51,832 nt of DNA from Lachnospiraceae bacterium (GTDB lineage Bacteria > Bacillota > Clostridia > Lachnospirales > Lachnospiraceae): NCBI GenBank assembly GCA_024698145.1, contig JAILRO010000042.1, positions 1 to 51,832 of the forward strand, written 5' to 3'. Below, one piece after another: positions 27,395 through 48,238 of the stretch; the first letter of the stretch is position 1, and each line of letters begins with the position of its first letter. Position numbers and translations under genes: made by a program. The notes under the pieces are model-generated. The model did not search any database. It was not told where the DNA came from and worked only from the letters and a program-made list of their open reading frames with translations.

Positions 27395-28378
27395 ATGAGA
27401 TCAAAAAATCAGAAATTAAAACTTTTGTATCTTGCGAAAATAATGCAGGAAAAAACAGATGATACGCATGCACTCAGCATGGCAGAGATTATAGAAGAAC
27501 TTAATAAATATGAAATCGAGGCTCACAGGAAAAGCATTTATACTGATATAGAGGCATTAAATGATTACGGAATTGAGATCCTGAAATATCAAAAGGGAAG
27601 CAATACATATTATCATTGTGGAACGAGAGATTTTGAACTGGCTGAACTTCACATCATCATTGATGCCATCGCTTCATCAAAGTTTATTACTGTGAAAAAG
27701 TCGCGTGACCTTATCAAGAAGATTGAGAATATGGCCAGCCTGTATGATAAGAAACTGCTCGATAGAGCAGTGTATGTATCGGGTCGTGTTAAAAATATGA
27801 ATGAAAGTATTTTCTATACGATTGATTCGATACAAAACGCTATTGCGAACAATCATAAAATTAAGTTTCAATATTTCGGATGGAATGTTGATAAGGAGAT
27901 GGAACTTCATCATGATGGTGATTATTATGAGATAAGCCCGTGGACTTTGGTGTGGGATAACGAGAATTATTATCTTGTTGGATTTGATAGTAAAGTAGAT
28001 GATTTCCGTCATTATAGAGTTGATAAAATGATTCATACAGAAGAGATAAAGGACAAGAGACAAGGCGCAGCTAAGTACAAGGCAAAAGATAAAGATATAT
28101 ACAGCCGAATGCGATTTAGAATGTTTGACGGAGAAGAGCAGATGGTGACACTCCGCTGTTCTGATGATATGGCAAATGTAATAATTGATCAGTTTGGCAG
28201 AGATATACAGATTCAGAAAATGAAGACCGGAGAATTCAAAGCAAGAGTTGAAGTGGCGGTCAGTGATCAGTTCCTTGGATGGATTCTTGCTCTTGGAGGC
28301 AAGGTTGTAATAGAAAGTCCAAAGGCTGTAAGAGACAGGTTTGTGGAATTGATTCAGGAGAATATGGGGAAGTATTAA
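27395..28378 (+). CDS. WYL-domain transcriptional regulator 1
   Basis: 327 aa. N-terminal winged helix (LSMAEIIEELNKYEIEAHRK, SIYTDIEALNDYGIEI), a linker, then a WYL domain at about residues 150-235 with SPWTLVWDNENYYLVGF and FRHYRVDKM, and a C-terminal WCX-like extension (VTLRCSDDMANVIIDQFG). This is the DeoR-type HTH-WYL-WCX layout of BrxR/CapW regulators, which repress defence genes and are released by a nucleotide or nucleic-acid ligand. It heads a module with a sigma factor and a nuclease-helicase. A second regulator of the same layout is at 40108. Confidence 0.85.
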   Translation: MRSKNQKLKLLYLAKIMQEKTDDTHALSMAEIIEELNKYEIEAHRKSIYTDIEALNDYGIEILKYQKGSNTYYHCGTRDFELAELHIIIDAIASSKFITVKKSRDLIKKIENMASLYDKKLLDRAVYVSGRVKNMNESIFYTIDSIQNAIANNHKIKFQYFGWNVDKEMELHHDGDYYEISPWTLVWDNENYYLVGFDSKVDDFRHYRVDKMIHTEEIKDKRQGAAKYKAKDKDIYSRMRFRMFDGEEQMVTLRCSDDMANVIIDQFGRDIQIQKMKTGEFKARVEVAVSDQFLGWILALGGKVVIESPKAVRDRFVELIQENMGKY

Positions 28379-28485: not shown

Positions 28486-29592
28486 ATGAATGAAGACATT
28501 ATCTTGAAAATGGTCCAGCCATATTTAAAAGATAATACAATTACATATCGAGAGTTTGATAATATTTTTGAATTTTTATCTTTGAAAGAACAATATGTTG
28601 TTGTAGAGATTTTATTTTCAAAAGGTATCTTATTGGTAGAGGATGATACAAATTCTGAATTAGAGTCAGTGAATGTTGATGAGGAAGTAGTTATTAATGA
28701 TACTGAAATTGATGAATTAGATGATTTTGAAATTCTATATGATGAAGATATATTCAAAGATAAAAATAATAGTGATGATAATGTAGTGTATTATAAGGAT
28801 GTTAGGCAGTCTAATGATATGCTTTGTATGCTAATTCAAGAAGGAAATATGCAAGCAAGACAGGATATTTGTGTAAAAAACAAATTGCTTGTAGATAAAT
28901 ATGTTAATGCTTATTTACGATATTTTGGTAATCACTTGGATTTTGAGGACTTAGAACAGGTTGGTTTTATTGGCTTGCTTAAAGCTGCAGAAAAATATGA
29001 TATAAGAAGAGATTCGGCTTTTAGTACGTATGCAGTGTTTTGGATAAAGCAATCAATTGTTAGAGAAGTAATGGACAATGGTTTTGTTATTCGAGTACCA
29101 GTGCATGTCATGGAACAGATTGGAAAGATGACAAGGTTGGATAATGAATATAGCTTTAAAGGGTATGATTTTAATGAACGCATTGTATTGGTTGCGAGTG
29201 ATATGCAAATTCCAGAGGAAAAAGTACAATATTTGTTAGGAGTAAGGCAACATTATTTATCTTATTCGTCATTAAATACACCAGTTGGTGAGGAAGAAGA
29301 CACTGAATTAGAAGATTTGTATTATGACAAATCGCAGGAATTGATAGAGGATGTTGTTAGTAGTACGATGTTAAGAGAGCAGTTAGTAGAGGTATTTTCT
29401 ACACTTACAGAGAGAGAACAGAAGGTGTTAAGACTTAGATATGGTCTTGATGACGGAAGAAACAGAACTCTTGAGGAGGTTGGAAAGGAATTCAATGTCA
29501 CAAGAGAGAGAATTAGACAAGTTGAAGCAAAGGCTTTAAGAAAATTGAGACATCCAGCTCGTAGCAGGAAATTAAGAGATTATTTAGATTAG
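28486..29592 (+). CDS. SigA/RpoD-like accessory sigma-70 factor
   Basis: 368 aa. Residues 1-50 resemble region 1.1 (ITYREFDNIFEFLSLKEQ), then a very acidic segment (about 50-100). Region 2 is at about 120-210 with DLEQVGFIGLLKAAEKYD and FSTYAVFWIKQSI; residues of the -10 binding part are retained. The C-terminal region 4.2 (LTEREQKVLRLRYGLDDGRN, NVTRERIRQVEAKALRKLRH) is near the housekeeping consensus. The usual region 1.2 DPVRMYL motif is absent. It is not the genomic rpoD by context: it lies between a WYL regulator and a helicase in a defence island. It may direct RNA polymerase to the island genes or compete during infection. RBS GTGGGGA. Confidence 0.8.
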   Translation: MNEDIILKMVQPYLKDNTITYREFDNIFEFLSLKEQYVVVEILFSKGILLVEDDTNSELESVNVDEEVVINDTEIDELDDFEILYDEDIFKDKNNSDDNVVYYKDVRQSNDMLCMLIQEGNMQARQDICVKNKLLVDKYVNAYLRYFGNHLDFEDLEQVGFIGLLKAAEKYDIRRDSAFSTYAVFWIKQSIVREVMDNGFVIRVPVHVMEQIGKMTRLDNEYSFKGYDFNERIVLVASDMQIPEEKVQYLLGVRQHYLSYSSLNTPVGEEEDTELEDLYYDKSQELIEDVVSSTMLREQLVEVFSTLTEREQKVLRLRYGLDDGRNRTLEEVGKEFNVTRERIRQVEAKALRKLRHPARSRKLRDYLD

Positions 29593-31789: not shown

Positions 31790-34700
31790 ATGTCAAATAC
31801 AATTTTAAATTCTGCAATTAATTCAAAATTGAGTAACATTCAGGAAATGGGAAAGAGTATCGTGGTGTTAAAGGGAATACCCATGAGCGTTGTGGATGGG
31901 GCAAACTCTGTTACAATCAATCTTGCGGAGGCTATTAATGACAAGTTTGCATACTTTATGAAGATTAATGGCAATCGTAAGTACATTACATATGAAGAAT
32001 TTTTACTTTTGGCTGATTTTATCGTATTGCAATATGATCAGATTTATATATTAAATAACAATATTTATATGGAGCAGTATCCACTTGACTGTGTTTTTGA
32101 GGATGATGTAAGACAGGGATTGCTCAACCACTTTATGGATGTTGATGGGGATGAACAGGATGATATAGAATTAGGGAACATTGATACTTATATTTCTATG
32201 TATGTTGGTATAAAAGAATTTAATGGTTACTTGTTGGGAGCTTATTGTGATGATAATTTGCCTTACAGTAATAAGATTATCAATATAAATCTGTTTGATG
32301 AAACAAACCGGACGTTAGAAAGTGTAGAGAATTCAGATGACTTTATTGATTTGATTGAGGAATCTGATTATATCGATTTGGTTAAGAAGGTTTTTGATGA
32401 GCCTGATGAGTTATATATAAGGACATCAAACTATACAGGAGACATCTATAAGTTGAATGCCCATCTGCAGATATTAGCAGAGAATTGGTGTGATTGGATT
32501 GATTTTTTTCATGTTCAAGCGCAAACTATTGATAGTAATTTTGAACATAGAGACGAATATAATGAGCTGCTTAAAAAATATTGGGGTTACTCCGATTTTA
32601 GAAAACTTCCAGTCTACGATATGGCAAAATTGGATGATGGAAAGAAAGAAGTAATTCAGGTGTCACAAGAGAATATTATCTCTGACTTGGTTCAACAAGT
32701 AGAAAATTGTGAATCTGATTCGGGAGATTTTAGAGATATATTTGTTACTGCGCCTACTGGTGCAGGTAAGTCTGCAATGTTCCAGATTCCAGCTATTTAT
32801 TTAGCTGAAAAATATAATTTGCTAACTATTGTTATTTCGCCATTGATTGGTTTGATGAATGATCAGGTTAAAAACTTGGAATTAAAAAACTATCCATATG
32901 CAAAGACAATCAATTCAGATATTTCGCCGATCATTAAGCAGGATATCATAGAGAAAGTTGCAAATGGTGAATACCATATTTTGTATATCTCGCCAGAGAC
33001 ACTTTTAAGTCGTAGTGATGTGGAACAACTCATTGGGGACAGGACTATCGGTATGATTGTAATTGATGAGGCACATATTGTAACTACTTGGGGAAAACAG
33101 TTTAGACCTGATTATTGGTACCTTGGTGACCATATTCGTAAATTAAGAAAGAAGCAGTTAGAAAAGAAGAATCGTGCATTTGTTACAGCAACATTTACTG
33201 CAACTGCAATTTATCATGGTGTTGAGGATATGTATAATGAAACTGTAAACAGCTTACACATGTTAAACCCAATAACGTATCTTGGATATGTAAAACGTAG
33301 TGATATAGATATTGTTATTGATAAAACGCAAAAAGAAAAAGGTGCAAGAAGAGAATATGAAAATGATAAGCACGTAGAAATAGAAAAACTATTAAAGCGT
33401 GCACTTATAACCAATAAGAAAACATTGATTTATTTTCCTACGGTTGCATTAATTGATCGTTGTTATGAATTTTTGCGTGCAAGACATGAAATAGAGCAGG
33501 TTGCAATATATCATGGCTCACTTTCCAAGGAAGATAAGCAAGAGAATTATGAAAAATTTATGAATGGTGAAAAACTTGTTATGCTTGCGACAAAAGCGTT
33601 CGGTATGGGCATCGACATTGACAATATCGAAATTGTTGTTCACTTTGCTCCTACAGGAAATGTCTGTGATTATGTGCAGGAGATTGGTCGTGCTGCAAGA
33701 AGAACGGATTTGGTTGGAGAGGCATTCTATCACTATGATTCGAGAGATTTCAAGCACATAAATAGATTGCATGGGCTTTCTATGATTCAAAGATACCAGT
33801 TGATTGAGGTTATTAAAAAGATAGATGAAGTGTATTCAAATAATCTTAATCGTGGTGGAAGGAATAATTTTACTAGAAGAAGAAATGCAATGCTTTTAGA
33901 TGCTGAAAACTTTACATATATTTTTGGATCACCAATTAGTGATGAAGATAACAGTATCAACAAAGTAAAGACGGCTCTTTTGATTATCCAAAAAGATTTT
34001 GAAAATAAAATCGGATTTTCTCCAATTACGATTAGACCGATTCCTATGTTTTCAATTGGATTTTTTGAGATTGATCCAAGAGTACAGACCAGAATGTTAA
34101 AAAAATATACGGATTGTTTGGAAGAGATTGAGCCTGAAAGACATATCTGTAGAGTGAACCTTAGTAAGATTTGGAATAAAGACTATTCAAATTTATCATT
34201 TCCTAAATTTAAGTATATGTTGTATAACAATGATGAGGATTTGAATTTTAATAGTCAGTACACATTACACCCGGCTCTATGTGTTTCTGTGGATTTCGCT
34301 GATGATTATAACAGTCAGTTTGAAAAGTTGTGGAGATCATTACAGGGATTCGTTAAGAAGAAAGTCATTTCGAGTGAGCATACTGCAATGATTGAAATCG
34401 CAGAACATATCGCATCAGAGTGTAGTATTTCTAAGTATAAAGCACAGGCAATATGTGAGGTCGTTTTGGCTTCTATGGACTCGTACCGCAGAAACTTTAG
34501 TAAAGGTACAACACCAATTGCCCAAGAGAAAACAACTGTCAGTGGACAGACGAAGTATCAGTTTAACACAGCTGTAAATTCATACTTCTCATGGGTAGAA
34601 AAGAAATATAGAAAAATTGTTTCAGAGACAAATGATGGCAAGTTGTATTTGATTAATGACAATGGGAACAGTACAAAAGAGATTAGTGTTGTTCTTGGTA

Positions 34701-35011
34701 TTTTAGAGTCGTTAAATGTTCTTGCGTTTGAAATGATTGGTGGTGCTAATAGCCAGTTGTATATTTATATCAACCAGATTCAGAGCTTAAAAAATATTTT
34801 GAAGGCTCCGTATTTATATCATAACAGACTATTAGAGGCGGTTAGTGAGAGACACCTTATTTCTGTTAAGATGTTAACTCATATTTATGAAGGAGACTTT
34901 AAGAATGAAGAAATCTGGAACATGTTAGAAGATTATTTCCTTGGAAATATTCCGGAAAAGGTTAAGCGTGAATGTATAAAGGAGAATCCTGATATGAAGT
35001 TTGATGATTAG
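31790..35011 (+). CDS. RecQ-like SF2 helicase with large flanking domains
   Basis: 1073 aa. Residues 1-290 are an unassigned acidic domain. The helicase core has Walker A APTGAGKSAMFQIP at about 322-330, motif II VIDEAHIVTTWGKQFR at about 424 (the DEAH-xxxx-W form of RecQ), FTATA as motif III and QEIGRAARR as motif VI at about 629. The C-terminal 400 residues have no zinc-binding or HRDC motif I can see. RBS AGAGGGG. An 11-base gap to the AspBHI-like nuclease gene suggests the helicase unwinds or translocates DNA for that nuclease. The 214 bases before it contain no gene or clear hairpin. Confidence 0.75.
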   Translation: MSNTILNSAINSKLSNIQEMGKSIVVLKGIPMSVVDGANSVTINLAEAINDKFAYFMKINGNRKYITYEEFLLLADFIVLQYDQIYILNNNIYMEQYPLDCVFEDDVRQGLLNHFMDVDGDEQDDIELGNIDTYISMYVGIKEFNGYLLGAYCDDNLPYSNKIININLFDETNRTLESVENSDDFIDLIEESDYIDLVKKVFDEPDELYIRTSNYTGDIYKLNAHLQILAENWCDWIDFFHVQAQTIDSNFEHRDEYNELLKKYWGYSDFRKLPVYDMAKLDDGKKEVIQVSQENIISDLVQQVENCESDSGDFRDIFVTAPTGAGKSAMFQIPAIYLAEKYNLLTIVISPLIGLMNDQVKNLELKNYPYAKTINSDISPIIKQDIIEKVANGEYHILYISPETLLSRSDVEQLIGDRTIGMIVIDEAHIVTTWGKQFRPDYWYLGDHIRKLRKKQLEKKNRAFVTATFTATAIYHGVEDMYNETVNSLHMLNPITYLGYVKRSDIDIVIDKTQKEKGARREYENDKHVEIEKLLKRALITNKKTLIYFPTVALIDRCYEFLRARHEIEQVAIYHGSLSKEDKQENYEKFMNGEKLVMLATKAFGMGIDIDNIEIVVHFAPTGNVCDYVQEIGRAARRTDLVGEAFYHYDSRDFKHINRLHGLSMIQRYQLIEVIKKIDEVYSNNLNRGGRNNFTRRRNAMLLDAENFTYIFGSPISDEDNSINKVKTALLIIQKDFENKIGFSPITIRPIPMFSIGFFEIDPRVQTRMLKKYTDCLEEIEPERHICRVNLSKIWNKDYSNLSFPKFKYMLYNNDEDLNFNSQYTLHPALCVSVDFADDYNSQFEKLWRSLQGFVKKKVISSEHTAMIEIAEHIASECSISKYKAQAICEVVLASMDSYRRNFSKGTTPIAQEKTTVSGQTKYQFNTAVNSYFSWVEKKYRKIVSETNDGKLYLINDNGNSTKEISVVLGILESLNVLAFEMIGGANSQLYIYINQIQSLKNILKAPYLYHNRLLEAVSERHLISVKMLTHIYEGDFKNEEIWNMLEDYFLGNIPEKVKRECIKENPDMKFDD

Positions 35012-35022
35012 GGAGACTGATT

Positions 35023-36270
35023 ATGGAAGTTAGTTTTGAAGATTTAGAAAAAGCTGATTTGATTGTAGATTGTATTTATAAGGGTGGGACTGCACCTGAT
35101 ATGTCTGCAGAACCATTTCATAAATTAATTCCTAGATGTGAAAATGCAGGTGGTTTTAGAAAAAAGCTTCGTGAAGATGGATCCGGGAAATACGCATATG
35201 TAGTCTTATATACATCCATGGAAGAACTTGAGTGGCCAGATTATCTTGATGAAGAAACAGGCATTTTTCGATATTACGGGGATAATAGAGAGCCTGGTCG
35301 TGAATTAAATGATACCAAAAAGAAAGGTAACCAGATATTAGAAACTACTTTTGCGTTGTTGAATGAGGGCGTGCATTTAGATGATATTCCTCCTTTTTTA
35401 ATTTTTAAAAAGACAGGTAATGCAAGAGATGTACAATTTCTGGGGCTAGCTGCTCCTGGTAATCCCAAGATATCACCAGATAAAGATTTAGTAGCTTTTT
35501 GGAGAACAGTAAAAGAAAAAAGATTTCAAAATTATGAAGCGTATTTTACTGTGTTAAATACAGGACAGGAAGTTATTTCTAGAAAGTGGTTAGAAAGTTT
35601 AATCTATAATCATGAAGAGAATTTGAGATATGCACCATCTGCTTGGATAAAATTTGTTAAACAAGGACGAAATGGTATTGACGCTCTTAAAGCACCAAAA
35701 CTTTTTAAAATTCCAGGGAAATATGAACAGTTACAAAGTGACGTAGAAGGCAATAAGTGTTTAGAATATATAAGAAGTTACTATCGTGATAACCCATATG
35801 GTTTTGAGGCTTGTGCGACGAATATCATTTCGAAAATGGATACTAATTTTGTTGATTTTTCGCTGACTAGACCATGGCGAGATGGTGGCAGAGATGCAAT
35901 GGGATTTTATACGATATCCACTGGGGGAAAAGCAAATCATCCCTTAAAGATTGATTGTGCATTGGAAGCAAAATGTTATGGAGCTGACACTGCTGTTAGA
36001 GTTCGGCAGATGTCGCGTCTTATATCTAGAATTAGATACAGACAGTTTGGCATAATGATTACCACAAGTTATGTCGATGGACAGGCATATAAAGAGGTTG
36101 TGGAGGATGGACATCCAATTCTTATTGTTACGGCAAGTGATATTGCAAGCATATTAAGGAAGAATTCTATCGATTCAAGTAATATTGACATGTGGCTGGA
36201 ATCGGTAGATGAAACTGTTTCACGTTTGGAATCATACTACACACGTGAAAGAGGATACGATTGTAGATAA
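35023..36270 (+). CDS. AspBHI/MspJI-like modification-dependent restriction endonuclease (Mrr fold)
   Basis: 415 aa. The N-terminal half (ADLIVDCIYKGGTAPDMSAE, FHKLIPRCENAGGFRK) matches the AspBHI N-terminal SRA-like reader that recognises 5-methylcytosine. The C-terminal half has an Mrr-type catalytic core, PWRDGGRDAMGFY and IDCALEAKCYG, giving D...ExK at about residues 290-320. Family members cut DNA near modified cytosines (type IV restriction). Here it lies next to a C5 methyltransferase unit, so its specificity must avoid the host mark. Preceded by the RecQ-like helicase and followed 22 bases later by the Sau3AI-like gene. Confidence 0.7.
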   Translation: MEVSFEDLEKADLIVDCIYKGGTAPDMSAEPFHKLIPRCENAGGFRKKLREDGSGKYAYVVLYTSMEELEWPDYLDEETGIFRYYGDNREPGRELNDTKKKGNQILETTFALLNEGVHLDDIPPFLIFKKTGNARDVQFLGLAAPGNPKISPDKDLVAFWRTVKEKRFQNYEAYFTVLNTGQEVISRKWLESLIYNHEENLRYAPSAWIKFVKQGRNGIDALKAPKLFKIPGKYEQLQSDVEGNKCLEYIRSYYRDNPYGFEACATNIISKMDTNFVDFSLTRPWRDGGRDAMGFYTISTGGKANHPLKIDCALEAKCYGADTAVRVRQMSRLISRIRYRQFGIMITTSYVDGQAYKEVVEDGHPILIVTASDIASILRKNSIDSSNIDMWLESVDETVSRLESYYTRERGYDCR

Positions 36271-36292
36271 ATCATTTTAAGGAGAGAAGATT

Positions 36293-37723
36293 ATGGATTT
36301 TGAAATTGAATATGACAAATCAAATCCATTATCAATTGAAGCTTATGCTCAAAAACTAATTGGAAAGACATTTAGACAAATTTGGGATGAAGATGATGCT
36401 AGACAAAATGTTGTTCATGAAGATTTAAAATATGGAACTGCCGAAGTGATTGAGACAAAACGTAATAAGGGAAATCTTGGGCAGATTGTAGAAGAGAAGT
36501 TTTTTCATTATGAATGTAACAGTGATTCTAGAGCGGATTTTCATGAGGCAGGAGTTGAACTGAAAGTTACACCATATAAAATAAATAAGAATGGAAGTAT
36601 ATCAGCAAAAGAGAGATTAATACTTACAATGATTGATTATTTTGCTGTTGTGAATGAAGATTTCGAAAGTAGTCATTTATGGAATAAGTCAAAATTGATC
36701 TTGTTAGTTTATTATTTGTATCAAAAGGAAATTCAATTCAATTTGGACTATAAAATTGGTTATTCAAGTCTGTTTACTCCGCCTATGCAGGATGTAATGA
36801 TTATTCGACATGATTATGAAGTTATTGTTGAAAAAATTAGAGCCGGTAGAGCTCACGAGTTGTCAGAAGGCGATACATTATATCTTGGAGCTGCTCCCAA
36901 GGCAGCTACTTCAAAAGATCGTAGAAAACAACCATTTAGTGAAGAACTTGCTAAACCAAGAGCATTTGCATTTAAAAATTCTTATATGACATATGTGCTG
37001 AACAATTATATTGTTCCGGGAAAAGATACATACGAAGCAATTATGCAAGATGGAATCGAATGTAATTTTGAAGATTATGTTATATCAAAGATTAATTCAT
37101 ATAAGGATTATACTGTCGAAGCTCTTTGTAGTGAATTTCAAATCGAATGTGATAAAAAACCTAAAAATCTTGAAGCAATGCTCGCGTATCGTATACTTGG
37201 CATTAAGGGAAATCATGCAGAAGAATTTGAAAAGGCTAATATTGTTGTAAAAACTATTCGAATTGGCAAAAACAACAAGATTAAAGAGAGTATGTCATTT
37301 CCGACATTCAAATTCAAAGAATTGATAGAAGAAGAGTGGGAAACATCAGTGTTTGGTACATATTTGAGTGAGACTAGATTCTTTTTTGTGGTGTATAAGT
37401 TTGATGAAAATGACGTGCTTCGCTTAAAAGGTTGCCAGTTTTGGAATATTCCATACGCAGATTTGGAAAATGAAGTTAAGAAAGTTTGGAACAAGACAAA
37501 GCAGGTAATCATAGATGGATTACAGATAGAACAACGAAATGGTAAGAATTATAATAACTTTCCTAATGCTTCAGAAAATCCAGTCTGCCACGTGAGGCCG
37601 CATGCCAAAAATGCTCAGGATACATATGAATTGCCGGATGGTAGACAGTATCCAAAACAGTGTTTCTGGTTGAATAATCATTATATTTTGTCACAATTAA
37701 AAGGTGATTTTAAGGAGGGGTAG
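36293..37723 (+). CDS. Sau3AI/MutH-family type II restriction endonuclease
   Basis: 476 aa, the usual two-lobed Sau3AI length. The MutH-like catalytic residues are in RADFHEAGVELKVTPYK (D at about residue 81, E-x-K at about 88-90), with RNKGNLGQIVEEKFF upstream. A second MutH-like lobe (FPTFKFKELIEEEWETS, SETRFFFVVYK) corresponds to the allosteric domain. Sau3AI cleaves GATC, and its partner methylates the C. A C5 methyltransferase lies 0.9 kb downstream in convergent orientation. The GATC specificity is inferred from the family. Confidence 0.8.
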   Translation: MDFEIEYDKSNPLSIEAYAQKLIGKTFRQIWDEDDARQNVVHEDLKYGTAEVIETKRNKGNLGQIVEEKFFHYECNSDSRADFHEAGVELKVTPYKINKNGSISAKERLILTMIDYFAVVNEDFESSHLWNKSKLILLVYYLYQKEIQFNLDYKIGYSSLFTPPMQDVMIIRHDYEVIVEKIRAGRAHELSEGDTLYLGAAPKAATSKDRRKQPFSEELAKPRAFAFKNSYMTYVLNNYIVPGKDTYEAIMQDGIECNFEDYVISKINSYKDYTVEALCSEFQIECDKKPKNLEAMLAYRILGIKGNHAEEFEKANIVVKTIRIGKNNKIKESMSFPTFKFKELIEEEWETSVFGTYLSETRFFFVVYKFDENDVLRLKGCQFWNIPYADLENEVKKVWNKTKQVIIDGLQIEQRNGKNYNNFPNASENPVCHVRPHAKNAQDTYELPDGRQYPKQCFWLNNHYILSQLKGDFKEG

Positions 37724-37728
37724 TTTAT

Positions 37729-38604
37729 ATGGCAAAAATATTGTCGAATGAAGAACTGATAGCTGTTTTAAAGGCAGACTATAGTGCAAAAACAATTAAC
37801 AAAGAGTCATTATTAAGAAGACAGTGGAATATTGATACATTTAATGCCTTAGAGAGAAAACAGTTGAAGTATGATAAGCTAGAAAAAAGAATAATGTTGT
37901 ATAAAACAATGGAGGGAGAAGAAGTATATATTCAGTATCCGGGTAAGGAATCAACTGAAAATCCTAAGATGCCATTAGATTTTAGACCAAAAGTTAAACT
38001 GAAGACAGGAGAGTATGCAATTGATTTATCCTTTGGTGCTATATGGGACATATTAGATGACATTTCTAGAAATCATAATGCTTATTTGAAGTACGTAGCT
38101 GCTTTATTTTTTAGAATGGGTTATATGCATGAATATAAAAAAATAAAGATGAGTTATGATTGTGAAATAGTAAAAATCAGCAAAGTTGGAGAAAAGATTG
38201 AAAAAAATGAGAAAATTCAGCTAGAGTGGTATGCTATGCAATTGGAAGAAGATGTTTGGTATACACTCAATGATAAGATGGGATGGATAAATCTTGGGAA
38301 CAATCAAGTAATTTCATTTGAAGGTTTTATTAAATTGGTGGATTTATTGTTTCAGAATGAAGATTGTAAGTATTATTATAAAAATATTGTTATAAAAAAG
38401 AAAGATAAATACAAGTTATCTAGTGGTAGAACAAATTCAAGTGCGGCAAATCTATTTATACTTAATTATTTAGAAGGAAATGTTAAGTTGTCAAAATTAC
38501 TTGATGCATTCCAAAAGAGTAGGGGAGTTCCTATGATAAAAAAGAGTGATTACTCTGTGGTGACCGATAAAATAGTGATTAATGTCGATATAGAATCAAG
38601 ATAA
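37729..38604 (+). CDS. Hypothetical protein of the Sau3AI-like restriction locus
   Basis: 291 aa, beginning five bases after the endonuclease gene (RBS AAGGAGGGG), so it is part of the same operon. Lys- and Ile-rich, with a middle segment DILDDISRNHNAYLKYVAAL and an end GVPMIKKSDYSVVTDKI. No catalytic motif or family is recognised. Its place between REase and MTase suggests an accessory role in the restriction system, such as stabilising the nuclease or recognising DNA. Confidence 0.5.
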   Translation: MAKILSNEELIAVLKADYSAKTINKESLLRRQWNIDTFNALERKQLKYDKLEKRIMLYKTMEGEEVYIQYPGKESTENPKMPLDFRPKVKLKTGEYAIDLSFGAIWDILDDISRNHNAYLKYVAALFFRMGYMHEYKKIKMSYDCEIVKISKVGEKIEKNEKIQLEWYAMQLEEDVWYTLNDKMGWINLGNNQVISFEGFIKLVDLLFQNEDCKYYYKNIVIKKKDKYKLSSGRTNSSAANLFILNYLEGNVKLSKLLDAFQKSRGVPMIKKSDYSVVTDKIVINVDIESR

Positions 38605-38606
38605 TA

Positions 38607-38640
38607 ATAACCCGAGAGACTACATTGCCTCTCGGGTTAT
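38607..38640. terminator. Bidirectional terminator
   Basis: ATAACCCGAGAG and CTCTCGGGTTAT form a perfect 12-bp stem with a 10-nt loop between the convergent genes. The methyltransferase stop codon lies within it. T-rich sequence is weak on the plus side. Confidence 0.7.
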
Positions 38641-39867
38641 GTCTTCTTCAACTACATAAGTAGTTTCCTTATCAAATATGGTGTTGAGATATGTTCCCAT
38701 GCGAGTGATGAGTCCAACAACTAAAGCATTACCCATGCAGAAGTAGCGGAATTTTTCAGGCATTCCTGTATTGGTCCAATCGTCATCGAATCCTTGTATA
38801 CGCTCGGCTTCTATTGGAGTAAGAAGTCGGAGGCGTTTGGTTTGAGGATCTTCGATGACATGGGTGCTTCTGTTTAGGCTAGATTCGCTTGTTAGCATTG
38901 TACGAGCAGGCTTATCTATTGGGTCAGGAAACGCAATAGGACCTTCAGAAAAAGTATAGGTATGACCAGTTTTACTGGTACGTTCTATTTTCTTTGCGCC
39001 CTTTAAATATTTCCATTTATCAAGGTTGTTGCCAAGGTAAAAGCGTTCTTCAACATCTTTATTAAGTAGAGTACGAAGCATTGTAGATTCTTCGTAAACA
39101 GGTGTTGTATCACATGTGTAAATTGTACCGTTATACATAAAGCCAGCATTGCCAAAAGCGTATGAAAAATGTTCAGTCACATCGGCTAAGTCAGATTCAG
39201 TTAATACGGTACTTCTGATATCATCATTAGATACACCAACAATCTTAAATGTATGAGCAAAGAAACCAATATTGTTGAAAATACAGTCTGGTCTAGCAAC
39301 TGACTTGCTGATATGAGTTGAATAATTGGTTTCATTTTTGTATGCAAAAATGAAAGTCCGTCGTCTTCTCTGTGCAAAACCATATTCAGCAGCATTAATT
39401 ACGCGCCATTCTACATTATATCCTAATTCGTTGAAACAAGTAAGAATAATACCAAAGTCTCTTCCACGCTGATTTGCTGGTGATTTTAGTAATCGGTCTA
39501 CATTCTCAAGAATAACAAAACTAGGGGATTTTGTTTCAAGAATATCTCTTATATCCCACCATAAGACACCTTTCTTCCCGTTAATTCCAGTTGCACCAGT
39601 TCGCGCAACAGAGTAATCCTGACATGGAAAGCCACCAACTAACAGGTTATGGTCAGGAATTGAAGATTTTTCAATTTCTGAAATGTTTTTGTTAACATGA
39701 TTAATTGATTTGCCAAAGTGTGCACAATAACAGTCAAATGCATGTTGTGTTTTTTTCCCAGGTTCCCACTGATTGGCCCATACAGTGGCCCATTCTTTGC
39801 TAGCACGTTCCATTCCCAAACGAAAACCACCAACGCCTGCAAATAATTCACATATAGTTTTTTCCAT
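38620..39867 (-). CDS. DNA (cytosine-5-)methyltransferase, likely GATC-specific
   Basis: 415 aa with all main C5-MTase motifs: I ELFAGVGGFRLGME (about residue 7), IV GGFPCQDYSVA with the catalytic Cys (about 80), VI LENVDRLL, VIII QRRRRTFIFA, and IX-X from RLRLLTPIEAERIQGF to CMGNALVVGL. It probably protects host GATC sites from the Sau3AI-like enzyme, since M.Sau3AI is a C5-MTase. A good RBS (AAGGAGGTGCC) precedes the start. Its promoter carries a GAAC-GATC-GTTC palindrome. Transcribed toward the restriction genes and divergently from the second WYL regulator. Confidence 0.85.
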   Translation of the reverse strand: MEKTICELFAGVGGFRLGMERASKEWATVWANQWEPGKKTQHAFDCYCAHFGKSINHVNKNISEIEKSSIPDHNLLVGGFPCQDYSVARTGATGINGKKGVLWWDIRDILETKSPSFVILENVDRLLKSPANQRGRDFGIILTCFNELGYNVEWRVINAAEYGFAQRRRRTFIFAYKNETNYSTHISKSVARPDCIFNNIGFFAHTFKIVGVSNDDIRSTVLTESDLADVTEHFSYAFGNAGFMYNGTIYTCDTTPVYEESTMLRTLLNKDVEERFYLGNNLDKWKYLKGAKKIERTSKTGHTYTFSEGPIAFPDPIDKPARTMLTSESSLNRSTHVIEDPQTKRLRLLTPIEAERIQGFDDDWTNTGMPEKFRYFCMGNALVVGLITRMGTYLNTIFDKETTYVVEEDITREAM

Positions 39868-40107: not shown

Positions 40108-41106
40108 ATGAATGATTTCAGTAAAAACAGAGTACTGGCATTATATAAAATTCTCACAACATATACGGACGAGCAGCATCAGATTTCTATGCAGGATATA
40201 TTGTTATATATGGAATCTGAAGGCTATTCCTGCAGTGAAGACAGTATTCTACGCTATATAAAGCAATTAAGAAATGAATTGGGTGTAGATGTGATTTCTA
40301 GTCGTGGAAGGAATGCTCGCTACTTTATCGGAACCAGACTTTTGGAAAAGGAAGAGATGAAGCTTATCATTGACTCTGTCAATGCATCTAATTTTATTGA
40401 GAAAAGTATTGCAACCAAAATGATTGATAAACTAAAGAGTACCATGAGTACTTATGATGCTGAGGACTTAGACAGAAGTGTGTTAGGTATTAACATTGCA
40501 AAAGCGGAGAATAAGAAAATTCTCTACAATGTAAATATTATTCAGGAAGCTTTGGTAAAAGGCGTCCGGATTAGTTTTGATTATATGGGTTGGGATAAAA
40601 ATAAAAAGCTGGTGAAAAAGTCTGAACGAAGATATAACATGAATCCCTGGGCATTAATATGGGCGAATGACCGATATTATTTGTACGGTTATGATATAAA
40701 AGAAATGGATGGTGTATTGAGCGAAAGAAACTATAGAGTAGATAAGCTTGATAATATTCAGCTATCTGACATTCCACGAGAAGGGAAAAGCCAGTTCAGA
40801 AGTTTTAATGCAAATACATATGTATCAAGGCGAATGGGAATGTTTTCGGGGAAAGAGCAAGCAATAACTGTAAGGATTCCGGAAACTTTGGTTGGAACAT
40901 TTATAGACCAATTTGGTAAACAAATTACAATTTCTGAAGATTCAGAAGACAAGTTGTTGGTAACTTTTATTGCAGTGCCTTCGGTTATCCTGCTTGGATG
41001 GTTGTTGGGGTTGAAATCTGTAGAAGTTGTGGAACCACAGAATGTAAGAGAAGATATAATTAACTTGTTGCAACATAATATGAATTTCTATGATGAAAAG
41101 AATTGA
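40108..41106 (+). CDS. WYL-domain transcriptional regulator 2
   Basis: 332 aa with the same HTH-WYL-WCX layout as the gene at 27395. HTH: HQISMQDILLYMESEGYSCS, SILRYIKQLRNELG. WYL: NPWALIWANDRYYLYGYD and RNYRVDKLDN. WCX-like end: VTVRIPETLVGTFIDQFG. RBS CAGGAG. It stands just before the helicase-nuclease operon and is the probable repressor of that module, perhaps at the palindrome 41142-41161. Confidence 0.85.
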   Translation: MNDFSKNRVLALYKILTTYTDEQHQISMQDILLYMESEGYSCSEDSILRYIKQLRNELGVDVISSRGRNARYFIGTRLLEKEEMKLIIDSVNASNFIEKSIATKMIDKLKSTMSTYDAEDLDRSVLGINIAKAENKKILYNVNIIQEALVKGVRISFDYMGWDKNKKLVKKSERRYNMNPWALIWANDRYYLYGYDIKEMDGVLSERNYRVDKLDNIQLSDIPREGKSQFRSFNANTYVSRRMGMFSGKEQAITVRIPETLVGTFIDQFGKQITISEDSEDKLLVTFIAVPSVILLGWLLGLKSVEVVEPQNVREDIINLLQHNMNFYDEKN

Positions 41107-41141
41107 CGCAAATATGCGGCAATTCTTTTTGCGTTTCGTGG

Positions 41142-41161
41142 TAAAATTATACATAATTTTA
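41142..41161. promoter_or_regulatory. 20-bp perfect palindrome ahead of the helicase-nuclease operon
   Basis: TAAAATTAT-AC-ATAATTTTA, 9-bp perfect arms, located 36 bases after the WYL gene stop and 52 bases before the helicase start. TTGCGT (41130-41135) lies just upstream and could act as a -35. The natural reading is the operator of the WYL regulator encoded next to it. Confidence 0.45.
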
Positions 41162-41212
41162 CTAATAACATTCATATGGGACACGTGCAAACAAACAGAG
41201 GAGGTTTGGATT

Positions 41213-44200
41213 TTGAAAGATTATTTATTAGATGTTATGCAACAACAAGAGCATGGTTTATATCTGTGCGAATTACCGACTGGTAACGGTAAGACTTTTG
41301 ATTCGGCACAGGCAATGAAAGAGTATGCAGATTCAATTTGTGATGAGATTAAAATCATTTACCTGACAACTTTAAATAAGAATTTACCGGAAGATGCATT
41401 GAGGGCAGCGTATGGAAGTGAGGAGCTCTATAAGCGTAATGTATTGAGATTACGCTCTAATTTTGATGAGGTTGTAGAAAAAATTCTTGAGATTGAAGTG
41501 CCGGAAGAAATGAAAACAGATGCGTATCTTAAATTATGCAAGGATGTTTCCCTTTACCGTAATGCTGTGGATAAAAGATATGCCGATAAAGAATATATAA
41601 AAGAATTGGCTGACAGAATAACAGAAGGGGACAGGCATCTTCGATACGAAATTACTAAACGATTAAAGAATAGATTTCAAACAAAGACTCAGCGTAAAAA
41701 GGCTATTCGAACTGATGTGAAATATAAATGGATTGGAAAATTATATCCTGCAGTATTTACAGACGATTACAAAATAATATTAATGAGTGTCAGTAAGTTT
41801 ATGAAGAGAAATTCTATTCTTATTGATTCCAGTTATGAGTTTTTGAATTCTGATTTGATAGAAAACGCAGTAATTGTTATTGATGAATTTGACGCAACGA
41901 AGGATACTATACAAAGTGAGCTGATAGAAAAGTCGTTGGCAATGCAGGAAGACTATATACAGTTGTTTCGTCAGATATATCGTACTTTGAATCCAAATGA
42001 TTTTTCTTCCAATATGAGACAGGCTATGGATGAGGTTGAAAAATCAGAAAATAGAAATACATTTACTACATTAATGGACGAAGCAAGTAAAATTGCTGAG
42101 AATTATCATGTAAGGTTAAGCATAAAGACAAAAGAAGATTTGGTGGATCAGAGACAGATTTTCCTATTTAATGATGGTTCATTCCATACGGTTTTAAAAG
42201 AAGGTGCACAGTATATCCGCTCATCCCTAAATGAAGAAGACAATCGTATTGATGTTTTCTTTGAGGGAAAAGGTGATTTTTTCAAGAACAGAAACAAAGA
42301 GAAAGATATTGTATTATATAGCCTGTTGCGTGAGATTAATATATTTCTTTTGCATTTTAGGTTATTTTCTATAGAATGGGCAAGAAATTATATGGATATT
42401 ATTAATAATTCCAGAAGTGGTACCACGGATGCAATGAATTTAGAGAATGCAATTAGTACAATCCTAAAAAGATTAGAATTAACTAATAAGCAAAGAGATT
42501 TGTTGATGGGTGAAACATGCCAAATGATTAGAAATAATCGTGAATTAATATTGGAGGATAGAAGCTTCTATCAGGTTGGTATGGAGTATTATGAATTTGA
42601 AGATAATGATTCTCATCATGACAATACAAATCTTAAATTTGTTAAGGTATATGATACTCCTGAAAAAATCATGTTATACCTTGCAGGAAAAGCAACTGTG
42701 TTTGGAATATCGGCAACTGCTGAAGTTGATACAGTTGTTGGAAATTATGATTTGAGATATTTGAAAGAACAGTTAAAAGAAAGGTTTCATAAGACGCCAG
42801 GTTATTTAAAGGACAAAACAAGAGCTGCATTAGAAAAAAGATGGAGCGCTTATGCAGATGGCGAGATAAATGTTCGTGGGGAAGTAATCAGCAGTAATAT
42901 ACAGGGATTCAATGCAGAAGATTATTGCAAAACATTTATGGATGCAGAATTTGCACGCTATGCTTCAAACGTTATCACCAATGTAACAGATAACGAATAT
43001 CAGATAATAAGGTACTGCAATGTACTTAAAGCAATGTGTATTTTTAATAGGAATGAAGATATTCAATCAATGTTGTACTTGGGAATGGCATTACCGAAGA
43101 AAAATAATCCAGGAATGGATGAAAGCGTTTTACAGCAGTTGTTTGAATATTCTCAGATGGAGACGCAGCAGAGCAATAGTAGTGTTTGCTTCTTGAAAGG
43201 CGACAATTTTGAACAGGATAAGGAAGAATTGCAGCAAAGATTGTCATGTGGAGAAAAGATATTTGTTATGTCATCTTATCAGACTATTGGTGCAGGGCAG
43301 AACTTGCAATATAAAATTCCGGAAGGTAGAAAAGTTGTACAGCTAGGAGCATTTACTGAAGGCGACAAGAGATTTTTATATAAGGATTTCGATGCTTTGT
43401 ATCTGGGAAATATAACTAATATGACAGTAAATACATATCAGGATGAGAAAATAACGTCTCATGATTTGTTGCAGATGTTGTTTCAAATAGAGGAATTGTA
43501 CGAAAACGGTGAAATGAATTATTCTGAAAAGGACCAAATGTTAAAACTTGCGTTTCGTTCTTATACAGGAAGTGACCAATTCACTTTAAACAAATTGTAT
43601 AAGTTAAAGAGTGTAGTTGTGCAAGCTAGCCGAATGGTTTTACAAGCAGTGGGTCGTATGTGTAGAACTTTTGTTAAGAGTCCGGATATATATTTATTTG
43701 TTGAATCTGAGTTATTAGAGAAATTATATGTTGGTGAATTAAAGAAACGCATCTTACCGCCGGAAATGAAAGCAATTGTGGATATGTGTGAGTCACTTGG
43801 AAAGGATTATCTGCCGGAAGAAAACTTTATGCTTAATAAGGCAGAAAAGATATCCTCGGTTGGTCTTTGGACGATTAGAAGAATGTTGGCAAAGGATTGG
43901 AGTGCTGAAAGTATGCAGTTGTGGGAACAGTTAAGGATGTTGGTATTACAGTATCCGACAGCAAGTACATATGACTGGCAGAATAATGAATATCTACAAA
44001 AACTTTACATTACAAGTGGAGAAAAGAGGAATCAATATATTTACTCACAGTATTCGGATTTCAATGATGTTACTATAGACTTTGGAAATGATAAAGTGGC
44101 ATTCAAAAACAGTAAAAGAGCCAAAATAAAGGGGGATTCTGATGAAGTTGCTATTTATGAAATGAGTGAAAAGGAATCCGGTTTGCCGGCGATACTTAGA

Positions 44201-44680
44201 TATCCTGGAATGAAAGCTTATTTTGAAGAAATGGGATATGCATTGAAATTTGAAATGAATGAATATCTTCTTAGCCCAGTGTTGTTTCATAATATTTATA
44301 AAGGTGCATTGGGCGAAGCGGCTGGTATGTTTATATTGAACAGAGAATTGGGGATTGAATTATCACCAATAACAGAGCCGGAATATTTTGAATTCTTCGA
44401 TTATAAGCTATCTGATGATGTGTATGTTGATTTTAAGAATTGGAAGTTTACATATGTGCAGGAAAGAGACGAAATCAGAAAAGATATATTGAGAAAGCTG
44501 GAGGCTATAGGGGCTAAACGAGTTTATATCATAAATGTTGTATCAGATAAAAATTACAAGCCGAGTGCCATAGTGGATCTGCGTTTGGTGGAGATTCCGA
44601 TGCTTATAAGAGAAGATGGTACAGTGTGTTATGAGAATTTACATATGATACGTAAGGAGGATTTTGAAAATGTTAACTAA
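41213..44680 (+). CDS. SF2 (DinG/DEAD-like) helicase fused to a C-terminal PD-(D/E)XK nuclease
   Basis: 1155 aa from TTG 41213, placed by RBS AGAGGAGGT; a longer in-frame reading from 41090 would overlap the WYL gene and the palindrome. Walker A ELPTGNGKTFDS is at residues 20-31. Motif II is VIVIDEFDATKD near 222. FGISATAEVD corresponds to motif III and VLQAVGRMCRTF near 812 to motif VI. Between II and III lies a long helical insert, as in DinG-like enzymes. The end (YKGALGEAAG, then DDVYVDFKNWKFT near 1071) has the E...D-x-K pattern of PD-(D/E)XK nucleases. The next gene overlaps by 11 nt. A helicase-nuclease of a WYL-controlled, apparently unnamed defence module. Confidence 0.65.
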   Translation: MKDYLLDVMQQQEHGLYLCELPTGNGKTFDSAQAMKEYADSICDEIKIIYLTTLNKNLPEDALRAAYGSEELYKRNVLRLRSNFDEVVEKILEIEVPEEMKTDAYLKLCKDVSLYRNAVDKRYADKEYIKELADRITEGDRHLRYEITKRLKNRFQTKTQRKKAIRTDVKYKWIGKLYPAVFTDDYKIILMSVSKFMKRNSILIDSSYEFLNSDLIENAVIVIDEFDATKDTIQSELIEKSLAMQEDYIQLFRQIYRTLNPNDFSSNMRQAMDEVEKSENRNTFTTLMDEASKIAENYHVRLSIKTKEDLVDQRQIFLFNDGSFHTVLKEGAQYIRSSLNEEDNRIDVFFEGKGDFFKNRNKEKDIVLYSLLREINIFLLHFRLFSIEWARNYMDIINNSRSGTTDAMNLENAISTILKRLELTNKQRDLLMGETCQMIRNNRELILEDRSFYQVGMEYYEFEDNDSHHDNTNLKFVKVYDTPEKIMLYLAGKATVFGISATAEVDTVVGNYDLRYLKEQLKERFHKTPGYLKDKTRAALEKRWSAYADGEINVRGEVISSNIQGFNAEDYCKTFMDAEFARYASNVITNVTDNEYQIIRYCNVLKAMCIFNRNEDIQSMLYLGMALPKKNNPGMDESVLQQLFEYSQMETQQSNSSVCFLKGDNFEQDKEELQQRLSCGEKIFVMSSYQTIGAGQNLQYKIPEGRKVVQLGAFTEGDKRFLYKDFDALYLGNITNMTVNTYQDEKITSHDLLQMLFQIEELYENGEMNYSEKDQMLKLAFRSYTGSDQFTLNKLYKLKSVVVQASRMVLQAVGRMCRTFVKSPDIYLFVESELLEKLYVGELKKRILPPEMKAIVDMCESLGKDYLPEENFMLNKAEKISSVGLWTIRRMLAKDWSAESMQLWEQLRMLVLQYPTASTYDWQNNEYLQKLYITSGEKRNQYIYSQYSDFNDVTIDFGNDKVAFKNSKRAKIKGDSDEVAIYEMSEKESGLPAILRYPGMKAYFEEMGYALKFEMNEYLLSPVLFHNIYKGALGEAAGMFILNRELGIELSPITEPEYFEFFDYKLSDDVYVDFKNWKFTYVQERDEIRKDILRKLEAIGAKRVYIINVVSDKNYKPSAIVDLRLVEIPMLIREDGTVCYENLHMIRKEDFENVN

Positions 44681-46766
44681 CAGAATTAATGTTGCCTACA
44701 ATATGGAAAATATTGATGCTGACTTTGATATTTTTAGAGTCGAGAAGGCTAACAAGGATTATTATAAATATAATATATTGGATTCGGCTGTATATGAATT
44801 TAAGGCGGCAGCAGTTCAGTGGACCTTTGGTGCAACTGCATTGGTGCTGTTCCGGAAGGGTGAGGTAACAGAAAAGCAATTTAAAGAAAGTATTATGAAA
44901 GAGTATGAAGATGTAAAAATCCAAAAGATTGATTTGTTTGATAGTGAGCAGTGCAATAAATGTTTTTATTATGAAAACAGATTACTTGCACAACTCCTGA
45001 TAAATTCAATGAGAACGCCTAAGCATGAGGCTTTTATGTATAATAATCTCACAGGTAAGCTTTTCTATCATGACCCATCATGGAGACATAAAGATAAATT
45101 AACAGGTAAGGTGAGTTTTATCAGATTCTTGGAGATTGTTATTAATCCGGGGATGTATCTCAATTTGGAACATAAAACATTCAAGAGATATGATCGAGAA
45201 AGTAACGGATTATATGTAATAGATTCAAAGACGGGTGAGTTTAGAAAAAAATTAAAAACGGATACCAATGTAATCACATACAAGGAAGGTTCCTTACCAC
45301 ATAACCACTTTAGAGTAGATAATTTTGATATTACAGATTATGCACATTTTAGAAAAAGTAAGATGGGCGTAATGGAACAGTTTTTAAGAGATGTGAACGA
45401 CAACCTTTCGAAATACATAACCATAGACATTGTCGAGAGGGAAGATGCGCAAGAATTTGATATTTCCAATCTGGAAAAGAAAGGAATATCAGAGCTTGAA
45501 TATGGTGAAATGCTGCAGAAAAAAGGTGTTGTAATTGTAGATGAGAATGACACAGAAATATCAAAAGATATCGTTGCAAAACTGCAAGAGGAGTTGGAGA
45601 AGTATTATCATGTAAAGGCAGCAGTAGGAAATCTTTCGGAAGATGCATATAATATCAGAATCATTCATGATGGTGAATATTATGCTGAAAATGATATGCA
45701 TGATCCACATAGTGATAATTTGAAAGGATATATTGTACAGCATATAACAGAAGAGGCTGAGCATTTTACAAATATAAAGGGCAGTTCTCCGGATATTAAG
45801 AAGATTGTTCAGGAACTTATAATAAAAGGTGATGTAAGAGAACGCATGATTTCAATTTTTGATTGGGAAAGACTTGATTCCGGAAAAGATTGGACCTTTG
45901 TTCTCAGAAAGAAGATAAAAACAAAATTCGGTGAAAATGCAGAGCATATAAATCATGTTAATAAAAAGGCGCTTAATTATTTCAACTATTATTGTTTGAA
46001 AATTGATAGCAATGGCAAAATGGAATTCGATACATTTTGTGATGATAATCAGGATGAAACAGAAGAGTGGAGCAAGATTTGTTATGCATATGATTATGTA
46101 GAAGATAAACATCGTGGTGTACAGAATCAAGTAGAAGGATTAATGTACTCGGATATTGATAATATTCATGCCATATTGTTAACACGCGAAAAGACTTTGC
46201 CTAATATATCGGCATTAATGGATACGCTAATGGAAACAGATGTAAAAGAGAGAGTCTCAAAAGAATTATTGTTGAAAGCAATAGATGATTTTGAAACTGA
46301 AAATATTGATTCAAGGGACTGTATTTCTGAATGGAAGAATAAGGTGTCAGCAGAAACAGAAATGATTACTAAGAAGGCAGTAAAAAAAATTTTAAATATG
46401 CGTACAGGAATTGCTTCAGGATTTAATAGATTTTTGCATGAAAAATATGGCGTTTGGATTGATGGTGAGTTGAGAAAAGGAGAATTTGAGGCGACTTACC
46501 AAATAGGAAATCTCTTAAACATCAAGTACGAATATAATGAGAAAGACTATTTAGATGGACGTACATTTGTATATTACGTGGGGGCTAAGAGTAAGAGATT
46601 AGCATATCCAAATGCTTGTTGTATGCGTAAGGTGATTTCTTTGGGAGAAGAACTTGAATATGAGGAGGCTCTTCCGTTGATGGCAGTAGAATTTGTGCGT
46701 AATAGTCAATATACTGTTCTTCCATTTCCATTCAAGTATTTGAGAGAATATATTGAACAGTGCTAA
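44670..46766 (+). CDS. Large protein of unknown family coupled to the helicase-nuclease
   Basis: 698 aa from ATG 44670 (RBS AAGGAGG). It overlaps the helicase gene by 11 nt, so the two are made together. I recognise no domain. The N-terminus (INVAYNMENIDADFDIFRVE) and first 150 residues are mixed alpha/beta. The middle has GVVIVDENDTEISKD and AYNIRIIHDGEYYAEND, then GYIVQHITEEAEHF. The C-terminus ends RTFVYYVGAKSKRL and LPFPFKYLREYIEQ. The order of beta-strand-like segments and the C-terminal hydrophobic tail made me consider a divergent PIWI/pPIWI-RE-type protein, which also travels with DinG-like helicases and REase domains, but no diagnostic residues could be confirmed. Confidence 0.5.
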   Translation: MLTNRINVAYNMENIDADFDIFRVEKANKDYYKYNILDSAVYEFKAAAVQWTFGATALVLFRKGEVTEKQFKESIMKEYEDVKIQKIDLFDSEQCNKCFYYENRLLAQLLINSMRTPKHEAFMYNNLTGKLFYHDPSWRHKDKLTGKVSFIRFLEIVINPGMYLNLEHKTFKRYDRESNGLYVIDSKTGEFRKKLKTDTNVITYKEGSLPHNHFRVDNFDITDYAHFRKSKMGVMEQFLRDVNDNLSKYITIDIVEREDAQEFDISNLEKKGISELEYGEMLQKKGVVIVDENDTEISKDIVAKLQEELEKYYHVKAAVGNLSEDAYNIRIIHDGEYYAENDMHDPHSDNLKGYIVQHITEEAEHFTNIKGSSPDIKKIVQELIIKGDVRERMISIFDWERLDSGKDWTFVLRKKIKTKFGENAEHINHVNKKALNYFNYYCLKIDSNGKMEFDTFCDDNQDETEEWSKICYAYDYVEDKHRGVQNQVEGLMYSDIDNIHAILLTREKTLPNISALMDTLMETDVKERVSKELLLKAIDDFETENIDSRDCISEWKNKVSAETEMITKKAVKKILNMRTGIASGFNRFLHEKYGVWIDGELRKGEFEATYQIGNLLNIKYEYNEKDYLDGRTFVYYVGAKSKRLAYPNACCMRKVISLGEELEYEEALPLMAVEFVRNSQYTVLPFPFKYLREYIEQC

Positions 46767-46947: not shown

Positions 46948-47620
46948 GCAAAGAGAAATTCATACAACAAAGAATACTAAACTGACAAAATTGGTCTTTT
47001 CAGGATATGTACAATCATGCTGAAAGCATGTATGATATACATGAGCAGAGTAAAAAGTCACAAAATGACCTGTTTTTATGAAAAATACACCAGAATAGTG
47101 TCTTTACAATTTGTAAATTATGGATTATGCTTTGTGTATGGTTTGAAAAGCCAATGGATTTTAACAACTGAATAGCAGTTACAGATTTGAGTAAAATTAC
47201 GGTTCATATACCCGTAGGATGAAAATCACAGTTATCATATTAGTAGGCTGATGGATTGAGAGATGAAGGCCGAGAGGCTGGATGGAAGTCCGGAAAAATG
47301 CGGAAGTAGGTATGTGGCGTAAGGATAATAATCCGTGAAGGGCGAGAGGTTCGTCCTGGTCCCCGCAAGGCAGATAGGGGAGATAGTGCTTCTCTTATGA
47401 GAAGGGCGTCGTGAACACAGTTTAAGTGGCTCGTCTGTAGCTCCCGGAGGTGAGTACACCTTTACGTATACGGGGCGGTGAGGGGTTGAAAAGGCCGGCG
47501 TATACCTTAATAGGAACTACAGGAAGAGTGGTTCGAATTACAATAAATAGATTGCAGTAGATAACAAAATCGTTATCCATAGTTTTGCGTTTATGTGAGC
47601 TGTGGGTAACGATTTTTTTT
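46948..47620 (+). ncRNA. Candidate large structured non-coding RNA
   Basis: A gene-free stretch of about 670 bases with a promoter at 46913 and an intrinsic terminator at 47567-47620. The part 47245-47530 is clearly richer in G and C than the island around it and lacks long reading frames. Small hairpins can be drawn throughout: GTCA-caaaa-TGAC (about 47057), GGAT-aata-ATCC (about 47332), GGGCGA/TCGTCC (about 47340-47355), CCCC/GGGG (about 47361-47380), CTTCTC-ttat-GAGAAG (about 47390-47405) and GGTG-agta-CACC (about 47449-47460). Size, order and setting recall ornate large RNAs (ROOL, GOLLD) or an omega-RNA/HEARO remnant, but I cannot identify the class. Confidence 0.45.
47567..47620 (+). 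terminator. Terminator of the candidate RNA
   Basis: AAATCGTTATCCA (47567-47579) and TGGGTAACGATTT (47603-47615) form a 13-bp stem with one G-U pair, followed by an uninterrupted T8. The loop is about 23 nt. Confidence 0.8.
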
Positions 47621-47656: not shown

Positions 47657-48238
47657 ACGGAAATTCGACGACCGCTGTTCAGATACTCCGGTCGCCCTAA
47701 GTATTATTGTGCCAAACATTATCTGGATAAAGCAGATGGAAAATGTAATATCAGTGTTCTTGATGCGACCATGGAAGAGGTTGTGATGAAGTCCCTGCAA
47801 CTGTTCATTGATATGTGGGTGGATTCCAGAAAGATTGTGGACGTGCAACGCAAGAAGCAGGCACAGCGTATGGCAGTGGCAGAAAAACATCTGGTAGATA
47901 TGGAGAACAGCAACGAGCGTCTTAACAAGGATTTGCGTGATGCGTACGAAAGCTACAAGCTTGGCATGACCGATAAAGAAACTTATCTGGAACAGAAAAA
48001 GACCTACGAGAATTTACTTATGCGTATGCAGGAAAACATAGAAAAGCAGAAAGTAGCAGTCGGTAAGTTGGCAACGGTGGACTTGCCTGAAGTAGCTGGT
48101 TTTGAAATGCTGGAAGGACAGATGAAACTACAGAAACTGAATAAGGAAATTGTGGATGCTTTCGTGGAAGAGATTGTTGTGTATGCCAAGGATAGGGTGG
48201 AGATAAAGTGGAAGTTTCGGGATGAATACACACGATAA
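47657..48238 (+). pseudogene. Large serine recombinase, C-terminal remnant
   Basis: An open frame with KYYCAKHYLDKADGKCNISV (zinc-ribbon-like segment) followed by a long coiled coil (RMAVAEKHLVDMENSNERLN, KLGMTDKETYLEQKKTYENL) and a C-terminal end VDAFVEEIVVYAKDRVEIKW. This is the zinc-ribbon, coiled-coil and tail part of large serine recombinases of ICEs and transposons. The N-terminal catalytic and recombinase domains are missing, and the frame has no proper start, so it is dead. It indicates that the island was carried or captured by an integrative element. Confidence 0.75.

Follow-up and report, generated by a model that had tools for sequence, protein, structure and literature searches.

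At positions 40108-46766 of the window (the whole stretch of 51,832 nucleotides from a Lachnospiraceae bacterium analysed in this study) we have identified what is, judging from its sequence, very probably a plasmid-eliminating DdmDE operon from a member of the Bacillota, placed behind a WYL regulator gene of its own. All elements of this region, from the WYL gene to the gene for a 698-aa protein, are located on the + strand (Table 1). The preliminary description, whose four elements were all confirmed in place, had read the region as a nucleic-acid-targeting defence operon, and homology points the same way: a predicted helicase-nuclease fusion is accompanied by an Argonaute-like partner and a WYL gene. 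It had also presented the system as undescribed, a claim which has to be withdrawn, since both proteins match the named and characterised DdmDE, the very outcome that the description had named as speaking against it.

Table 1. Coordinates of the ddmDE operon, its regulator gene and the motifs discussed in the text
Feature	Position	Strand	Details
WYL-domain transcriptional regulator	40108..41106	+	332 aa; Pfam WYL 4.7e-8
Hairpin over the WYL stop codon	41096..41129	+	15-nt arms, 93% complementary
Palindrome GTAAAATTAT-AC-ATAATTTTAC, putative WYL operator	41141..41162	.	perfect arms; AT-rich
ddmD, SF2 helicase with C-terminal PD-(D/E)XK nuclease	41213..44680	+	1155 aa, TTG start; PADLOC, PDB
Walker A PTGNGKT, residues 22-28 of the 1155-aa form	41276..41296	+	K27 in 57/57 rows
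Walker B IDEFD, residues 223-227	41879..41893	+	D224, E225 and D227 in 57/57 rows
Helicase motif VI QAVGRMCR, residues 811-818	43643..43666	+	Q811, A812, G814, R815 and R818 in 57/57 rows
Nuclease core GALGE (E1035), D1063, D1073-x-K1075	44303..44437	+	all four residues in 57/57 rows
ddmE, Argonaute-like guide protein	44670..46766	+	698 aa; phmmer, profile, model vs 9iw3

The ddmD and ddmE genes and their products

We place the start of ddmD at TTG 41213, with the strong ribosome-binding site AGAGGAGG just ahead of it. The list of open reading frames contains a longer form of 1196 aa beginning with ATG 41090. We consider this start less likely, since the N-termini of four aligned homologues fall within a few residues of TTG 41213 and the palindrome discussed below lies inside the extension. 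The ddmE gene begins with ATG 44670, preceded by AAGGAGG, and its 11-nt overlap with the end of ddmD (stop codon at 44680) is as previously described. By virtue of this overlap the two genes have the adjacent, single-operon arrangement of DdmDE. Both frames are intact in the window and retain their motifs.

The 1155-aa product has the architecture of DdmD, an SF2 helicase with a C-terminal PD-(D/E)XK nuclease, in agreement with what had been recognised from its motifs. It is matched by the PADLOC DdmD model (3.8e-36) and, with the 1196-aa form as the query, by solved DdmD chains (2e-79 for PDB 9ix4 and 1.5e-36 for Vibrio cholerae DdmD). The conservation of the helicase and nuclease motifs was assessed in an alignment of 57 rows, each a single frame of at least 1050 aa (Table 1); the Walker A motif of locus L016 is without PTG. 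Among the matches listed, the nearest DdmD is that of Butyrivibrio sp. VCD2006 (Lachnospiraceae).

The 698-aa protein, in which no motif could previously be named, was recognised as DdmE by both profile and fold. Taken as a single sequence, it matched the PADLOC DdmE model weakly (1.5e-5), and 20 of 47 family members matched this model at 0.01. A phmmer comparison with the solved DdmE 9iw3 gave 2.3e-13, and a profile of the 47 family members reached 9.1e-73 with Lactobacillus casei DdmE and 1.3e-46 with V. cholerae DdmE. The predicted structure (mean pLDDT 87) was matched by Foldseek to L. casei DdmE 9iw3 with E 8e-40, TM 0.77 and 18% identity. The six best matches of the model were all DdmE chains, followed by PIWI and Argonaute proteins, which bears out the comparison with MID-PIWI folds that had been suggested. 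Profile and predicted model thus agree on an Argonaute-like fold homologous to solved DdmE; Pfam and NCBIfam searches with this protein gave nothing useful. Within residues 395-698 (approximately the PIWI half) E693 is the only acidic position present in at least 90% of the 47 rows, the next column reaching 74%, in an alignment that is divergent and in which the tetrad positions are not superposed. This pattern speaks against a conserved PIWI tetrad and would fit an inactive Argonaute.

The WYL gene and the region upstream of ddmD

The WYL regulator claimed in the preliminary description was confirmed, its Pfam WYL match being above the cutoff; the matches to WCX (1.5e-4) and HTH_11 (0.01) are each below it. 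A profile of seven WYL proteins was closest to DriD chains (7.1e-9 to 3.2e-8), with PafBC at 4.4e-5, and gave no match to BrxR/CapW up to E 1. The predicted WYL model is of moderate confidence (pLDDT 74, pTM 0.50); DriD was its nearest Foldseek match (E 1.9e-12), yet with a whole-model TM of only 0.30, and the fold match of BrxR/CapW was weaker (about 1e-5). DriD and PafBC are described as WYL activators that bind ssDNA, and BrxR and CapW, like the putative regulator in the window, as WYL regulators over defence operons. The genome of the strain contains four matches to the window WYL protein, itself included. A WYL gene (VC1772) is also reported upstream of V. cholerae ddmDE (PMC12409362), whereas the available sections of PMC12259885 do not link WYL and DdmDE.

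The 106-nt gap between the WYL gene and ddmD contains the putative operator. It had been described as a perfect 20-bp palindrome, which is correct for the two 10-nt arms but overlooks a 2-nt spacer, so that the footprint is 22 nt. The palindrome exceeds chance: among 5000 dinucleotide shuffles of the gap, arms of at least 10 nt occurred in 2 when the spacer was limited to 2 nt, and in 13 when it could extend to 12 nt. The hairpin over the WYL stop codon, absent from the output of a scan for consensus terminators, is the same at 34 of 35 positions in locus L012, and might serve to keep the transcripts of WYL and ddmD apart.

L012 is the nearest relative of the window among the matches listed, with a DdmD identity of 86-89% across the regions compared. 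The palindrome arms of the two loci are identical at 20 of 20 positions, versus 22 identities in the 35 nt that follow downstream. The ddmDE operon of L012 is broken, and the conservation of the arms may therefore partly reflect a short divergence and carries less weight than conservation in an intact relative would. With up to 2 mismatches allowed, the palindrome has a single occurrence in the 2.89-Mb draft genome, and with up to 3 the window holds no second site, which rules out a recurring regulon site within these limits. In this respect the window WYL protein would differ from DriD, which is reported to act at multiple promoters.

An inverted repeat upstream of ddmD, scored when no more than 5% of the shuffles equalled it, was present in 7 of 8 WYL-linked loci (the window included) versus 3 of 51 others (Fisher p 2.7e-6; 1.4e-5 without the near-identical L028). 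The test covered the 59 of 65 rows with a recognisable Walker A motif, a start codon and 120 nt of upstream sequence free of N; under these rules the script left out L016, L026, L056, L059, L062 and L065. One of these, L016, is WYL-linked and has a GC-rich, terminator-like repeat. L014 and L017 were placed among the 51 others. L017, with its WYL gene 2.4 kb away, has no repeat; L014, one of the three with a repeat, is truncated on the upstream side and closely related to the WYL-linked L019. In the linked, near-identical pair L019 and L028 the scored repeat is GC-rich and terminator-like, and is followed by an AT-rich repeat with equal arms, while the WYL-linked L015 has no upstream repeat (p 0.56). 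The upstream repeats vary between WYL lineages, and the WYL-linked loci are related, so that the linkage counts are not independent. Taken together, the linkage of the repeat, the conserved arms and the unique site support, but do not prove, the putative assignment of the palindrome as a dedicated WYL operator.

Distribution of related loci and the genetic neighbourhood

At least 64 related DdmD loci were retrieved by a genome scan with two conserved DdmD motifs. The preliminary description had proposed a search for a conserved trio of WYL, helicase and 698-aa genes; this holds for the DdmD-DdmE pair, found side by side in 49 of the 64 loci listed (six of the remainder are cut off), but not for the WYL gene: only nine of the 64, all from Clostridia, have one at a distance of up to 3.5 kb from ddmD (adjacent in eight). 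A tenth WYL match, that of L032, is situated some 7 kb beyond ddmD, and most of the DdmD loci among the matches listed lack a WYL gene in their vicinity. A Pfam scan of 113 of 119 upstream ORFs (three in L028 and one each in L040, L050 and L064 were dropped) gave, among the best 25 of 192 families, seven WYL matches, the number which the profile had found among them.

In a DdmD tree built by a quick method from 61 of the 64 loci listed and the window, the nine WYL loci and the window fall inside one well-supported clade of 16 rows; its other members are L011, L018, L035 and L036, without WYL, and the cut loci L009 and L014. The six linked WYL proteins occupy three places in the WYL tree. As a tree with all of them in a single clade could not be rejected (p-AU 0.105), we do not claim that DdmDE loci recruited their WYL genes independently. 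In the latter tree L093 is represented by a badly chosen frame of 1324 aa, L097 yielded no frame, and L028 and L032 are not included.

Nine loci with at least 2 kb of downstream sequence have DdmD without DdmE (L043, L046, L049, L052, L053, L054, L058, L061 and L071), and their helicase and nuclease motif residues are retained. DdmE was found in none of 10 genomes (those of the nine loci and of L050, all records titled MAG), and the same query recovered it in 8 of 8 controls. These loci are possible candidates for DdmE-independent DdmD systems. DdmD together with DdmE is also present in methanogenic archaea (L030, L040 and L070). Five of 72,556 plasmid records match DdmD, one of them (from Nostoc) over most of its length. 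No copy was found in the 25 other genomes of the genus, and among 397 genomes sampled from the family there were six matches, one of them partial; the genome of the window itself is one of the six.

Insertions carrying two ORFs were observed within ddmD of L012 (L012:9338-11694) and within ddmE of L038 (L038:11997-14298); we take both to resemble IS21-type elements. The part of the L012 DdmD past residue 706 is apparently lost.

Several further features of the window deserve mention. The cluster of defence genes at 31790-39867 encodes a RecQ/DpdF-like helicase (PADLOC C3a193), an AspBHI-like modification-dependent restriction enzyme, a Sau3AI family enzyme, a C5 DNA methyltransferase (on the - strand) and a 291-aa protein without a convincing match. 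The neighbouring island contains a sigma-70-type factor with regions 2, 3 and 4 (28486-29592), flanked by a Schlafen/UvrD-like helicase gene and by a further WYL gene, the second of the window (27395-28378). Apart from itself, the best match of the sigma factor within the genome is 53% identical over residues 118-368. About 475 nt 3' of ddmE an Rfam Clostridiales-3 RNA was detected (47241-47510; 238.8 bits, gathering 103.4). It is followed at 47771-48238 by a 155-aa ORF with a DUF4368 match below the cutoff, which resembles the C-terminus of a large serine recombinase.

Proposed mechanism, alternative explanations and implications

According to PMC12409362, DdmE is a catalytically inactive pAgo, which finds plasmid DNA by means of DNA guides and recruits DdmD; the autoinhibited DdmD dimer comes apart, and DdmD loads on the non-target strand and travels along ssDNA 5' to 3', with nuclease-dependent cleavage of the plasmid. 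DdmDE is likewise presented as a guided anti-plasmid or pAgo system in PMC12904381 and PMC12205087. By homology with V. cholerae DdmDE, the DdmE protein of the window would be loaded with short DNA guides, mark the DNA of plasmids and recruit DdmD for loading on the non-target strand, translocation and cleavage. The WYL protein would most likely bind to the intergenic palindrome upstream of ddmD and set ddmDE transcription, perhaps with ssDNA as the signal, as with DriD and PafBC. The L. casei system (PDB 9ix4, 9iw3 and 9ixm) has a DdmD and a DdmE that are homologous to those of the window along most of the sequence, and it shares the fusion of helicase and PD-(D/E)XK nuclease and the DdmE fold, but differs by low identity, as the structural alignment of DdmE illustrates. 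The V. cholerae system resembles it in the upstream WYL gene, but host and sequence are distant.

Helicase, nuclease and Argonaute-like components are common to pPIWI-RE and DdmDE, and this likeness of parts was the ground for comparing the operon with pPIWI-RE. The libraries searched should contain pPIWI-RE models, and the comparison led nowhere: no such family appeared among the matches listed, and the nearest solved structures were DdmD and DdmE, over most of the length of both proteins. We therefore reject a pPIWI-RE-like system as extremely improbable. It is also very unlikely that the DdmDE operon is a decayed, non-functional copy; such decay does occur in relatives (the ddmD of L012, split by an insertion, matches residues 1-706 only, and the ddmE of L038 is split), but the intact frames and preserved motifs of the window argue against it. 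A question compatible with the DdmDE identity is whether the same machine might in nature be directed mainly against conjugative or phage DNA and less against small plasmids. The adjoining restriction enzymes, DNA methyltransferase and further helicases form a general defence neighbourhood, which would suit such a target; the characterised DdmDE acts on plasmids (PMC12409362), and we regard the other target as rather improbable.

With respect to regulation only, the WYL gene might be an unrelated neighbour and the palindrome might serve another protein or termination. The genomes searched often carry WYL paralogues, and the L017 WYL protein groups with a general paralogue; the seven WYL matches among the scanned upstream ORFs and the distant match in L032 point the same way. 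Against this stand the co-occurrence of repeat and WYL linkage, the preservation of the arms in a changed flank and the WYL gene upstream of ddmDE in V. cholerae (PMC12409362), which together make a chance neighbour unlikely. We consider it possible, albeit doubtful, that the DdmDE operons of these Clostridia are inducible, with an ssDNA-sensing WYL protein that raises or releases ddmDE expression via the palindrome and so forms a self-tuning circuit for this DNA-guided defence.

To conclude, a system that appeared undescribed is now a known and structurally solved one, and there is therefore no need to search for a new mechanism. The analysis also provides a defined, testable putative regulator-operator pair for DdmDE, the regulation of which by WYL proteins was described as still under investigation in 2025 (PMC12409362), and the survey points out the groups of Clostridia in which a WYL gene beside ddmDE is common. 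If these operons are indeed inducible, the ssDNA would come from rolling-circle or conjugating plasmids, or from DdmD itself, and V. cholerae, where a WYL gene is likewise placed ahead of ddmDE, may follow the same logic.
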